A stretch of 11,613 bases of DNA. Origin: Tannerellaceae bacterium. Its GTDB lineage: Bacteria; Bacteroidota; Bacteroidia; Bacteroidales; Tannerellaceae. The position numbers were made by a program, and so were the translations under genes. Location: positions 1 to 11,613 of the forward strand of contig JAITHO010000019.1 in the NCBI GenBank assembly GCA_031279915.1. The letters run 5' to 3'. How positions within the stretch are numbered: position 1 is the first letter of the stretch; each line of letters opens with the position of its first letter. Shown one piece after another: positions 1,833 to 11,250 of the stretch. The notes beneath the pieces were generated by a model, which saw nothing but the letters and a program-made list of their open reading frames with translations, had not been told where the DNA came from and searched no databases.

Positions 1833-2341
1833 CCCATCGAGGGATTTTTCCCCCACAACTTATCGGCCAAATCCCCACCGAGGGAAATCACCCCCACAAC
1901 TTATCGGCCAAATCCCTCGCCGAGGGAAATCTCCACCACAACTTATTGGCAAAACCCTTCGCTAGGGAAAGCTCCAAAACGTTTTTTCGGCCAATCCCCT
2001 CGCGAGGGAAAACTCCAAAACGTTTTTTTAGCCAATCCCCTCGCGAGGGAAAACTCCACCACAATGTTTTGGAGCTTTCCCTCGCGAGGGGTTTTATACA
2101 ATTTTCCCATTTTTCGGGTTTCAGAGCCGATGGAAGCCCCCAAAACAAAGTTTTGGAGCTCTTACATGCCGAGGGAGGCGATAATTTTGCCCGATTCTTT
2201 GAATAACTCAACGTGGGACAGGGGTAAAATAAAGTTTTGGCCCAATCCCTCGCCATGGGATTCGCAACTTTTTTTGTTTTGGAGGTTTCACTAGCGAGGG
2301 GATCCGGTGAAAATGTTGAATTGGGAAATCCCCTCGCGAGG
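1833..2341. repeat. Array 1: CCCTCGCGAGGG palindromes every 41-42 bp
   Basis: A palindromic core CCCTCGCGAGGG or a decayed form recurs at 1833-1843, 1873-1884, 1914-1926, 1955-1967, 1997-2008, 2038-2049, 2079-2090, about 2165-2175, 2247-2259, 2290-2300 and 2331-2341. Core centres step by 40.5-42 bp, or by about 84 where one core has decayed (near 2127 and 2211). The 1997, 2038 and 2079 copies are perfect 12-bp palindromes. Spacers are related too: one type reads core, AAAACTCC or AAAGCTCC, AAAACG with a T run, then GGCCAATCC into the next core. From 2070 on some units run in the opposite orientation. Flanking coding regions are rsmF (its start at 1720) and the end of the beta-galactosidase gene (2474). 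No credible gene lies in the stretch, since 41 bp is not a multiple of three. Confidence 0.9.
2037..2091. repeat. Large inverted repeat inside array 1
   Basis: Two array units face each other. The arm 2037-2058 (CCCCTCGCGAGGG, then AAAACTCCA) pairs with 2070-2091 (TGGAGC, then TTTCCCTCGCGAGGGG) at 21 of 22 positions around an 11-base loop. Each arm also contains a self-palindromic 12-bp core. The segment could form a cruciform in DNA or a very stable hairpin in RNA from either strand. No T run follows on either strand, so it is not a classic terminator. Confidence 0.85.
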
Positions 2342-2386
2342 ATTTTCAGAAAAAAAATATTTGTAAAACCTTCACTAGAATTGCAA

Positions 2387-2434
2387 CGGCAGCAAAAAGC
2401 TCATTTACCAACGTAAAATTCGCTTTTGCTGCCG
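2387..2434 (-). terminator. lacZ: Long hairpin just after the beta-galactosidase stop
   Basis: CGGCAGCAAAAAGC (2387-2400) pairs with GCTTTTGCTGCCG (2422-2434) with one extra A in the first arm; a second stem TTTAC/GTAAA closes on the 4-base loop CAAC inside it. The hairpin begins 39 bases after the beta-galactosidase stop. No T run follows the stem on either strand, but the stem ends are GC-rich and the closing arm read on the minus strand contains TTTTT. It is the most likely 3' end of the beta-galactosidase message; a processing or stabilising hairpin is the alternative. Confidence 0.5.
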
Positions 2435-2473
2435 AAGCGTAATGCAGGAAAAGGCTGCTATTTGAAGCGACCT

Positions 2474-5400
2474 TTATTCGACGGTGATGGTATAAGCGTA
2501 CTTGTATTCCTTTGCCGTGAAGCGATATTTGTCGAGAGGTTTTGCGCCCCAGGAATCGGTTCCGCCAAGGCCGCGCTGGAAGAGGTCGACGCTGAGAACC
2601 ACCTCGTTGCGCGGAACGACGTCTGACCAGTGCTGCTGCTTTTTGGTGAGGCCCGGATCAAGGTCTTCGGGATAATTGTTGAGGGCGCTTACCGAAAGAG
2701 GCTGGGCTCCGTCGATTCGGATTCCGCTGCCCGATGCGTTGCGGAGGCTTAGCCATCGAACGTCGGTTTTGTTGCCGGTTTCTTGCGGGCGGAAGTAGGG
2801 GAAGGCTTGGTCGGCCACTTTTCCGCTCCATATTCCCATGAAGGTATCGCCGTTTCTGTCAACATAATTTTCCCAAGGACCGCGCCCGTACCAGCTAAAG
2901 TTGTCGTATTCGGCGCGTAGCGACATTATCATGCCGAATCTCATCATTTCGGGGAGGTCGGCGAGGGCGCGATAGTGGGCCTCAACGGTTAGGCTACCGT
3001 TGGCGTTGACCCTGTATCGCAAGTCAACGGAGGCTTCGATGCCGCGCAGCTTGGCTGTATAATCCAGCGTGACTGCGTTGTTTTTCTCCTCTGCCCCGCG
3101 AAATGTGTATACAAAATTGTGTGATGCGGCATCCCAGAGCTTGAGGTTGGAGGGTTCGTTGCTTCCGAAATCATTGTCGGTTGGAGCGCGCCAGAAGTTG
3201 AGGCGGGGCATGCTGCTCAGCACGTTGGCGTCGCCTTTGAGGATGGCAATGAGTGGCCCTCCTCCGGCAGCGCGTCGCATAAATCCGCGTGGGGCGAGGT
3301 CGGAAAAGAGGTAGGTGATGCCGCCTGCTTTAACGGTTAGGCGTTCGCGGTCAAACTCGGGTTTGGCAATGGCGGCCTTGTCGCTTGAGGCGAAGTAATT
3401 ATTCACGGGGAAAGCAAATTCTTCCTTAGCTGCTTCATATCCGGCGGGAATAAATTCGCTGGCCTTTGTGGTATATGCAAATAATTGGAGAAAATATTCG
3501 GAGCCGGCTTCGGCAGCTAATGCGGGCAGCTGCAGCTTCACGTCCTTTTGGCTACCGGCTGGAACGGATACTTCGAATGGGCCTTCGGCTACGATCTGCC
3601 CGTTTTTCAGTATCCTCCATTTGAAGGTATAATTATCTTTCCCGATGGGGATGAAGTTGAAATCGTTGGCAACAGTTATCAGTCCGCTTGCCACATCCTT
3701 GTTTTTGAACAGTATGTTCTGGTACACTTTTTTCACTATATGAGTGTGGGGCAGATACTGTTGGTCGGGGCTAACGATTCCGTCCATGCAGAAGTTGCCA
3801 TCGTTAGGATAGTTCCATCCTCCCAAATCTCCGCCGTAAGCCCAGTAGGCGCGTCCATACTCATCTCGAGCCGCAAAGCCATGATTGTACCACTCCCAAA
3901 TGAATCCCCCCTGCATGTTCTTCGAGCTGCGCATCACGTCCCAATATTCCTGCATGTTGCCCATGCTATTGCCCATCGCGTGAGCATATTCGCACAGCAC
4001 GAAGGGCCTTCCCAGGTCTTGCTCCGCATCGCGCTGCATGGAGGGGAGGCTGGAGTACATGGGGCAAATGATATCGGTATTTGCTTCGCGCCCTGCCCGT
4101 TCGTATTGCACAGGGCGGCTCTTGTCGCGGGCCTTTATCCATGCATAATTCGACTTGAATGCCACGCCGTTGCCCGCTTCATTGCCGAGCGACCATATCA
4201 CAACGGATGGGTGATTCTTATCCCGTTCAACCAGCCTTACCGCCCTGTCGAGATGAGCCGCTTGCCACTGGGGGAAGTTGGCCGGATTCTCAGCGCCGTA
4301 TCCCATTCCGTGCGACTCAAGATTGGCTTCGTCAACGAGGTAAATGCCGTACTCATCGCACAGGTCGTACCATAGCGGTTGCTGCGGATAATGCGAAGTG
4401 CGCACAGCATTAATGTTGAGTTCCTTCATCAGCTTCAGATTGCGCATCATGGTTTCGCGGGATACAACCTGCCCTGTTTTGGTGTCGAACTCGTGGAGAT
4501 TGACTCCCTTGAAATATATCTTCTTGCCGTTGATGAAGAACTGTCCGTCTTTGATTTCTACTTTCCGGAAACCAATGCGCGCGGAGGTGGCTTCAATAAC
4601 ATCGCCCTTTGAGTTTATAAGGGATATAATTAATGTATATAGATTGGGAGTTTCGGCCGACCATTTTTCGGGATTGCTTATGGTTCCGCTGAAAACAGCT
4701 TCGGCGACATTAGCGGCGGGCAATGCGATCGTTTTCGTTTGCCCGGCAACCTTCTTCTGGGCCTTGTCGAGGATGAGCATCTGAAGCTGCGCGTTTTCGG
4801 CTTTGGCTGCATAGTTCTTGATCTTTACGTCGACAGAGTAAACGCCATTCTTATAGGCAGCATCGAGGTCGGGATGAGCAAAGAAGTCGAGAATCCTGCT
4901 TTGCGCCGTGCTGTACAGATAAACGTTGCGGATAATTCCGCCCATTCTCCACATGTCCTGATCCTCGAGATAGTATCCATCGCTAAACTTATGCACCTCG
5001 CAGGCGAGAATGTTGCCTCCGGGACGGATGTATGGAGTGATATCAAATTCGGCAGGGCTCTTAGAGTTCTGCGTGTATCCCACCTTCTTGCCGTTAACCC
5101 AAACATACATGGAGTTGGTTCCTGCCTCGAAGTGGAGAAACACCCGTCGTCCGCTCCAGCTTTCGGGAATGTTGAATTGATGTCGATAGGCGCCTGTGGG
5201 CGAGTCATCGCGGTCGATTAGCGGAATGTTGGCTTTGAATCCGTATCCGATATTAACGTAGAAGGGCAATCCATATCCGTTGAACTCCCAGCATCCCGGC
5301 ACCGGAATCTCCTTCCAACTACCTGCGTTATAATTTTCTTCGTAGAATCCAGCCGGCACATCGGCAATCTTGGCCGACCATTTGAACTTCCAATTCCCGT

Positions 5401-10572: not shown

Positions 10573-10598
10573 GTAATGTATTATTTTTTTGTTGTTTG

Positions 10599-10606
10599 CA
10601 AACATA
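10599..10606 (-). promoter_or_regulatory. -7 box of the four-gene operon
   Basis: TATGTTTG on the minus strand matches TAnnTTTG and ends 26 bases before the chosen ATG (10572), a usual leader length. No good TTTG box lies 19 bases upstream, so the -33 element is weak or absent. The box overlaps two in-frame upstream codons and so argues for the downstream start. Confidence 0.5.
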
Positions 10607-10827
10607 CGCAAAATTGAATTACTAATCACGAATCCTTTCTTAATTGCAAGGCGAACTATGGCAATTATGATTTTGCGGATTATGGATTATGAGGGATGAA
10701 AACCGCCGGTTCTTTAGTCTGCGCGGCCGGCAAGGCCTTATCTGCGGAAAGTTTGCGCCTGCTCCATCCAGCCTCGACATGAGCGGAAGCTCCGGAGGCA
10801 ATGCCTATTCTCAGTCGCCAACGCCCA
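10607..10827. other. Spacer between the operon promoter and array 3
   Basis: No credible gene. A weak inverted repeat AATTGC/GCAATT (10642-10647 and 10661-10666) is present. From about 10750 the sequence is GC-richer and has scattered short matches to array 3 units (TCGCCAA near 10815), which may be fully decayed copies. Confidence 0.4.
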
Positions 10828-11250
10828 GCTCCCGTCAAGCCTCCGCCATTCATCCATCCCCTCCAAAATTTGCAGGAGAGCCTGCGAAGAATCGCAACGA
10901 GCAGAAACTATTTCTCGCAAGCCTTTTCGATGTCGCAAAACTTTAAAATTATTTCTCGCAAGATTTCTCGATGTCGCAAAGACTTAAAACCATTTCTCGC
11001 GAACCTTTTCGATGTCGCAATGCCTTAAAGTAGTTTCCCGCAAACCTTTTCGATGTCGCAAAACCTTAAAACTATTTCTCGCAAGTCTTTTCGATATCAC
11101 AAAACCTTAAAACTGTTTCTCGCAAACTTTTTCGATGTCGCAAAACTTCAAATGCATTTCTCGCTAACCGTTTCGAGATCGAAACGCTTCAAATTTATTT
11201 CTCACAAGCTTTTGCGATATGGCAAAGGCGTGAAACTTTTCCAATCAAGC
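10828..11250. repeat. Array 3: nine or more 41-bp units with TTTCTCGCAA
   Basis: Units begin with TTTCTCGCAA or close forms at 10911, 10952, 10993, 11034, 11075, 11116, 11157 and 11198, every step exactly 41 bp. Each unit continues with CCTTTTCGATGTCGCAAAAC, then a TTAAAAC segment. A degenerate unit precedes at 10869 (step 42) and a more decayed one at about 10828; another decayed unit follows at about 11238. The last good unit contains a clear dyad, TTTTGC-GATAT-GGCAAA. Divergence is greatest at both ends and least in the middle, as in other tandem arrays. It lies between the divergent starts of the lipid operon and tyrS. Short open frames through it are of low complexity and break because 41 is not a multiple of three. 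Confidence 0.9.

Follow-up and report, generated by a model that had tools for sequence, protein, structure and literature searches.

The stretch analysed here, referred to as the window, is the whole of contig C168 (11,613 nucleotides) of a Tannerellaceae bacterium, and its subject is a set of three intergenic tandem arrays. The genome comprises 2,085,321 bp in 229 contigs at 60.75% completeness, and is for these reasons probably a metagenome assembly. The nearest named relative found was Tannerellaceae bacterium Pc512_bin25 (L078, from genome G047 within the window's genus; 88% at the query protein), which presumably comes from termite gut. Judged by eye from their translations, the window's genes are taken to encode an rRNA methyltransferase-like protein, a GH2 beta-galactosidase, a TPR protein, an acyltransferase-like protein, a CDP-alcohol phosphatidyltransferase-like protein, an SDR and a cytidylyltransferase, with tyrS starting at the right end. 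The features belonging to the arrays are as follows.

Array 1, 1838-2345, forward strand: a dispersed element of about 500 bp, an imperfect inverted repeat overall, with forward 41-bp units to about 2064 and then inverted, degenerate ones.
Orientation switch in array 1, 2038-2090, forward strand: the CCCTCGCGAGGG words at 2038 and 2079 face AAAACTCCA...TGGAGCTTT, and the spacing remains 41.
Array 2, 7344-7522, forward strand: units of 41 or 42 bp, in which AAAGCTTCC comes after the word CAACATTGTTG or CAACAATGTTG.
Left arm of an imperfect inverted repeat around array 2, 7310-7333, forward strand: from flank comparison.
Right arm of the same repeat, 7586-7611, reverse strand: also from flank comparison.
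Array 3, 10905-11227, forward strand: 41-bp units around TTTCTCGCAA...TTTTCGATGTCGCAAAA.

A preliminary description of the window had attributed a common 41-42 bp period to the three arrays, and autocorrelation peaks at 41/42 and their multiples were found in all of them. Tandem Repeats Finder (TRF) placed array 1 at 1838-2064 with period 41, array 2 at 7344-7522 with period 42 (83 scored nearly as well), and array 3 at 10905-11176 with period 41. Steps between words, allowing up to two substitutions, were 41, 41, 41, 168 (4 x 42), 42 and 42 in array 1; 41, 41, 42 and 42 in array 2; and, for two words of array 3, 41 five times and 41 seven times. The extents originally given needed revision. 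Array 1, described as 1833-2341, is regular to about 2064-2090 but is inverted and degenerate beyond, 1838-2345 forming one inverted-repeat element; array 3, described as 10828-11250, is regular from about 10905 but not from 10828. The arrays had also been called unrelated. Their sequences do differ, but the term is too strong for arrays 1 and 2, in both of which a palindrome is followed by an AAAGCTyC- or AAAACTCC-like tag; the common layout of a dyad plus an AAAGCT tag, noted at the same time, is real. By eye, array 3 shows an imperfect dyad, TTTTCGA-TG-TCGCAAAA. Each of the three units has relatives at other places in the genome, those of array 3 lying at C172 and C32.

Periods were surveyed in 40 contigs of the window's genome picked by their numbers (C1 to C22, then every fifth contig between C40 and C145; 365 kb), a sample that omits the window and the contigs known to hold relatives of arrays 1-3 and is thereby biased against arrays. 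TRF rows with periods of 10-300 were merged, a home-made open-reading-frame rule separated coding from non-coding arrays, and arrays scoring at least 90 were classed as strong. The 52 non-coding arrays comprised 45 strong and seven weaker ones. The strong periods were 21 (one array), 22 (three), 23 (two), 25 (one), 40 (five), 41 (22) and 42 (11), placing 38 of the 45 at 40-42 and seven at 21-25, with none between 26 and 39 or above 42. The array finder does see other periods, because the 22 arrays called coding had periods of 12 (four), 13 (one), 14 (two), 15 (four), 18 (one), 21 (two), 24 (two), 41 (one), 42 (one), 45 (three) and 243 (one). The broad spread of intergenic periods that had been named beforehand as a refutation was not seen; genome-wide they concentrate at 40-42. 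The coincidence of three arrays is a sample of a genome-wide rule, in which length and symmetry are kept and letters are not.

Relatives were sampled at four ranks with 20 stretches of at most 20 kb for each, most of them neighbourhoods of tyrS or a phosphatidyltransferase gene. The genus is represented by 17 genomes, and the family's other genera, further families of the order, and the class and phylum by 20 each. Strong non-coding arrays numbered 18 in 342 kb of the genus (ten at 40-42, six at 21-23, and one each at 84 and 126) and 13 in 384 kb of the other family genera (eight at 40-42, four at 21-22 and one at 84). The order stretches yielded six in 371 kb (22, 22, 66, 66, 74 and 89) and the class/phylum stretches three in 398 kb (14, 90 and 104); the 40-42 period was absent among these nine strong non-coding arrays outside the family. 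Together, the own, genus and family samples gave 76 strong non-coding arrays, 56 at 40-42, 17 at 21-25 and three at 84 or 126. Weaker arrays (score 50-89) had periods of 17 (one) and 22 (six) in the own contigs; 15 (one), 21 (one) and 22 (seven) in the genus; 13 (one), 14 (two), 19 (one), 20 (one), 21 (one), 22 (six) and 26 (one) in the family; 15 (one), 21 (two) and 22 (two) in the order; and 14, 15, 18 and 25 in the class/phylum stretches. Among 36 named loci, a set that partly overlaps the genus sample and whose arrays were not sorted into coding and non-coding, Parabacteroides sp. An277 had arrays of 41, 41 and 40 and P. distasonis An897 had a 41-bp array. The class of about 22 bp, also dyad-symmetric, is more widespread than that of 41 bp: it extends to another family in the order, at L223, where 66-bp multiples occur.

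For sequence comparisons the window and 15 further own contigs, chosen as holding array relatives, were added (518 kb in all). The resulting 63 own arrays were preselected at a TRF period of 38-43, which limits the weight of the step counts and leaves the 40-contig survey as the unselected evidence. Copy-to-copy steps of 0.6-1.5 unit lengths were 40 (25), 41 (167), 42 (114) and 43 (one) in the own arrays, that is 306 of 307 at 40-42; 40 (seven), 41 (24), 42 (28) and 43 (one) in the genus; and 40 (ten), 41 (13), 42 (four) and 43 (one) in the family. Own arrays with at least three steps (n = 46) had a mean of 41.28, a standard deviation of 0.53 and a range of 40.0-42.25, and mean steps were 40.67 in five family arrays and 22.09 in 19 short-class arrays. 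Given array means of 40.0-42.25 and a short-class mean of 22.09, the 41-bp and short classes do not come out as multiples of a single helical repeat. A 41-bp unit made as a dimer of about 21 was also rejected, with no half-period similarity at lags 20 and 21 and a small excess at lag 18 (z 3.5). At a threshold of at least 72% identity over at least 36 nt, the 63 arrays formed 34 sequence families (sizes 15, 4, 3, 3, eight of 2 and 22 of 1), and the consensus lengths of one representative per family were 40 (three), 41 (16) and 42 (15), with a standard deviation of 0.64. This diversity, together with the period survey, supports the earlier proposal that a common agent fixes unit length while sequence differs. 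According to a home-made gene caller, 57 of the 63 arrays overlap a called gene by no more than half; of the six others, five lie on low-scoring calls and one (L037) on a strong call. Arrays account for 2.95% of the sampled own bases. Of 80 contig ends, 12 are no more than 60 bp from an array; assembly thus tends to break there, and the real number of copies may exceed that assembled.

The units are dyad-symmetric. Whole-unit symmetry was 0.56 in the 34 family representatives versus 0.47 after dinucleotide shuffling (z 9.6), 0.54 versus 0.47 in 18 genus and family units (z 6.4), and 0.68 versus 0.54 in 30 short units (z 10.3), with a second, weak symmetry centre half a unit away. Exact dyad arms of at least 7 were present in 14 of the 34 representatives (1.1 expected), five of the 18 relatives (0.6) and five of the 30 short units (0.7). 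In the 44 own arrays with exact arms of at least 5, words range from 10 to 26 bp and the unit is constant at 40-42. The cores had been suggested to be phased with the helix, an idea not supported by the A+T patches, which have no excess at four cycles per unit and an excess at three. These patches recur about three times per 41-bp unit (about 13.8 bp apart), a pattern reached in 0 of 300 shuffles for the 34 representatives and found more weakly in the 18 relatives (p 0.017). A shared A+T profile was rejected as not above its null maximum and not carried to the relatives. A common motif was likewise rejected; the own families were above the null maximum at widths 8 and 12 and not at 20.

Within units, words and spacers behave as exchangeable modules. 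In the largest family, that of array 1, the words vary, CCCTCGCGAGGG, TTTTCAAGAACTTGAAAA and TCCGACGCGTCGGA among them, on a spacer that has parts resembling GAAAGCTCCAAAAC and CCAAT, and L027 and L037 have the same word with a changed spacer. The arms of the words covary in this family: 14 distinct cores from its 15 arrays (one duplicate core was dropped) gave 70 matched pairs versus 56.2 ± 3.4 on exchange of right halves (maximum 68 in 2000), in a test that unit relatedness inflates. The best other copies of array 1 are in C158 (82% identity), C106 (80%) and C130 (76%) over window positions 1850-1876 to 2323-2345, and their flanks are unrelated between loci where visible, the C158 copy beginning at a contig end. 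Across the four loci, spacers are 78-86% identical and word columns 56-74%, words being lower in all six pairs. Word likeness was 0.750 at different positions of the same locus, 0.699 at the same position of different loci and 0.651 otherwise; with loci permuted within positions the within-locus value was 0.676 ± 0.006, and 0 of 2000 permutations reached 0.750. This test used 10 of 12 positions, P7 and P9 being dropped because their word borders were not definable, and the window's own P8 word departs from its locus word. The computed fold of the element is a single long hairpin (z -9.1 as RNA, -7.9 as DNA), with 16 of 125 consensus pairs, mostly word with word, changed on both sides in an alignment of only four sequences. 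Because the words are palindromes, local and long-range pairing in the element are indistinguishable. A scan for orientation changes in arrays with exact arms of at least 5 returned 14 switch rows in nine arrays, with word spacing across the switch of 41, 42, 82, 126 or 127 in ten rows; the cleanest is array 1's own, with 1-2 mismatches.

Array sites turn over. Arrays of any period within 900 bp upstream of tyrS were found at three of 12 genus loci (periods 22, 41 and 42, all with different units), one of 20 family loci (22, called coding) and one of 20 order loci (74). Orthologous sites, to which the preliminary description had pointed as a check, gave a divided answer in L078: the array-2 site holds a homologous array, 77-79% identical, but the array upstream of tyrS has a similar period and an unrelated unit, and the methyltransferase-gene gap has a weak array-1 match (66% over 59 nt). 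When gaps of 20 bp or more in the 40 own contigs were counted, arrays at contig ends being left out, co-directional gaps held arrays in 6 of 104 cases, convergent ones in 4 of 27 and divergent ones in 9 of 30. Window positions 2474-10646, running from the GH2 gene to that of the cytidylyltransferase, are inverted in L078 (8711-16822). Both ends fall in gaps that bear arrays in both genomes, the weak array-1 match being the only one found there. At L078:7668-8370 an array beside the methyltransferase gene is bracketed by an inverted repeat of about 20 bp (TCAAAAGCCCTTCACTGTGA), seen by eye and resembling a miniature inverted-repeat transposable element (MITE). The gap at L078:8430-8590 holds TCATTCCCGCGAAGGCGGGAAT and an inverted copy, a sequence presumed to be a widespread bacterial repeat.

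The preliminary description knew of no element of this kind, a statement that did not hold, as satellites of constant size and variable sequence are already known (PMC8161180; Subirana and Messeguer, Int J Mol Sci 2021). The accessible part of that paper reports non-coding repeats of 20-21 and 52 nt, with 20-23 in other groups, equates 20-21 nt with two helix turns, and leaves open why intergenic repeats in some bacteria are conserved in length and not in sequence; it neither names a 41-bp length nor describes a 41-bp class with such word architecture. By that partial account, the arrays here resemble those satellites in being non-coding, in having several families per genome at one length (38 of 45 strong own arrays at 40-42; 63 arrays in 34 families), in being species-specific and partly strain-conserved, and in their short characteristic sub-sequences. 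They differ in their lengths (40-42 plus about 22), their host family, their dyad-symmetric units and their exchanged palindromic words. The published lengths of 20-23 or 52 nt are not matched by the main class at 40-42, and the minority class at 21-25 nearly fits. No title or abstract opening found in the open literature, whose full texts were mostly not covered, names 41-bp arrays in Tannerellaceae. Repeat lengths of 22/44 or 52 were reportedly given by Subirana and Messeguer in J Bacteriol in 2020.

Repetitive extragenic palindromes and bacterial interspersed mosaic elements (REP/BIME) are intergenic palindromes linked to RAYT (Y1) transposases. The arrays share with them, as far as the accessible text of PMC3733652 goes, intergenic palindromes, here in some cases with a tag (GAAAGCtyC) beside the word, but they have no fixed genome-wide word. 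A RAYT driver was rejected: a Y1 transposase (PF01797) was not found in the window's genome (G000, 61% complete) or its nearest relative G047 (83%), where a gene may have been missed, and 29 of 78 family genomes match. BrickBuilt, a minisatellite-MITE of Porphyromonas gingivalis, is likewise a tandem repeat in Bacteroidales with dispersed copies and variable copy number; in what is accessible of PMC4596501 it is one family with a 23-nt unit, a leader and a tail, unlike the many families, mainly of 41 bp and with few flanking inverted repeats, seen here. A CRISPR array, with its constant repeat and unique spacers, was rejected, as here the whole unit repeats, with TRF matches of 61-98% over the units listed.

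The reading preferred here, with a probability of about 0.45, is that the arrays are intergenic satellites of constant repeat size and variable sequence, a 41-bp class beside one of about 22 bp, in which dyad spacing is selected and words are rewritten through hairpins. It builds on the length peak, the sequence diversity, the dyad symmetry of the units, the covarying arms of one family, the swapping of words and spacers, and array 1's words, which are specific to each locus. The spacing at most orientation switches and the occurrence of arrays in all three kinds of gap are also counted in its favour. During replication or repair, single-stranded palindromic words would fold into hairpins; by template switching and conversion among the words of an array, words could then be rewritten and units flipped, which would homogenise a locus and swap modules between loci. 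What is kept constant would be the distance between neighbouring dyads, with some agent acting on one dyad per about 41 bp whatever its letters. The first-choice agent would be a structure- or symmetry-reading DNA-binding protein of nucleoid type whose copies bind side by side; with about four turns of the helix between them, neighbouring dyads would lie roughly on one face.

Several observations weigh against this reading. The dyad-binding protein is hypothetical. The distribution of 40-42 arrays is patchy: seven of the ten in the genus lie in two stretches of the nearest relative G047, with one each in G026, G044 and G058, and five of the eight in the family lie in one stretch (L212) of a single-contig genome (G021), with one each in G018, G020 and G024. 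Only 15 of 44 own arrays reach dyad p<=0.05 singly (five of 16 in the genus and three of 12 in the family; control 41-mers 1.3%, n = 150), and 19 of 63 own arrays have no exact dyad arms of 5. Hypervariable words were rejected as a general rule, since among related pairs (80 of 125, with identity of at least 0.62 and a dyad) word identity was 0.76 and spacer identity 0.73, the word was lower in 32, and neither part was consistently faster. Spacings of 44, 44, 51 and 9 were found in the remaining four of 14 switch rows; some rows are one site seen from both sides, and several orientation calls are weak, those of L029 having 6-7 mismatches. Own-family motifs were not above shuffles in held-out relatives at widths 8 and 12 and were about 2 standard deviations above at 20, the width at which the fit in the own families was not above its null maximum. 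Period differences were 0.30 within versus 0.66 between families, and common descent explains part of the constancy.

A mutational ruler is a serious though doubtful competitor. Replication or repair stalling at palindromes would make tandem duplications of about 22 or 41 bp, dyads would cause amplification, and function would be needless; the dyad symmetry of both length classes, the arrays in all gene arrangements and the turnover upstream of tyrS all fit. The own arrays lacking arms of 5 do not, and to our knowledge there is no enzyme with duplication sizes of about 22 or 41 bp, which is counted against it. The preference for selection on dyad spacing over such a ruler is moderate at best and has two grounds: lengths vary little among families with no similarity detected between them, and spacing is kept in most flips. 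Common descent alone, in which one or a few ancestral arrays dispersed and exchanged modules and length stayed constant because indels are rare, would account for the 15-array family with its exchanged words, the four dispersed copies of array 1, the own-family motif excess at widths 8 and 12 and the smaller period differences within families. It is distinctly improbable as the whole explanation: the length standard deviation is only 0.64 over 34 families unlinked at 72% identity or more (among arrays preselected at 38-43), the unselected survey of own contigs shows nothing at 26-39 or above 42, and full sequence turnover at ordinary indel rates should, by our estimate, widen the spread.

A function as RNA, with the arrays transcribed and each unit a hairpin, appears very unlikely. 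The first 200 nt of 54 own arrays of 100 nt or more have a mean folding z of -4.6 on either strand, against -1.3 for 50 other intergenic pieces, and the 52-nt satellites of B. coagulans are transcribed, according to the accessible parts of PMC8161180 and PMC8625621; but both strands fold equally well, no Rfam family comes near its cut-off, and the fold of array 3 is weak (z -1.8). A general 3' terminator role was rejected, as arrays also lie in the divergent gaps. That MITE-like transposable elements carry the arrays as cargo, after the manner of BrickBuilt in Porphyromonas, is scarcely credible as the explanation, even though array 1 is a dispersed element of about 500 bp with unrelated flanks and an imperfect inverted repeat encloses array 2 (score 26, against a 99th percentile of 24 for mismatched flanks). 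Of 87 blocks 69 were usable, and only six of these had flanking inverted repeats that reached the 99th null percentile (0.94 expected), a minority that counts against the MITE as a general model; cargo would account for dispersal, not for the common length.

A bolder extension of the preferred reading, selected dyad spacing with rewritten words, is a family-wide system in which each locus has its own palindromic word at a fixed 41-bp pitch, pitch and symmetry are read and letters are not, and words are rewritten in concert per locus. This is unlikely; if true, it would be a sequence-independent, symmetry-reading system of chromosome organisation. The Tannerellaceae arrays add to the known satellites a distinct length and a structural handle, namely dyad symmetry, covarying arms, words specific to each locus and a spacing largely preserved when orientation flips, and these properties narrow what the cell can read. 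P. distasonis An897 and Parabacteroides sp. An277, as named isolates with 40-41-bp arrays, make the question testable in culturable species.

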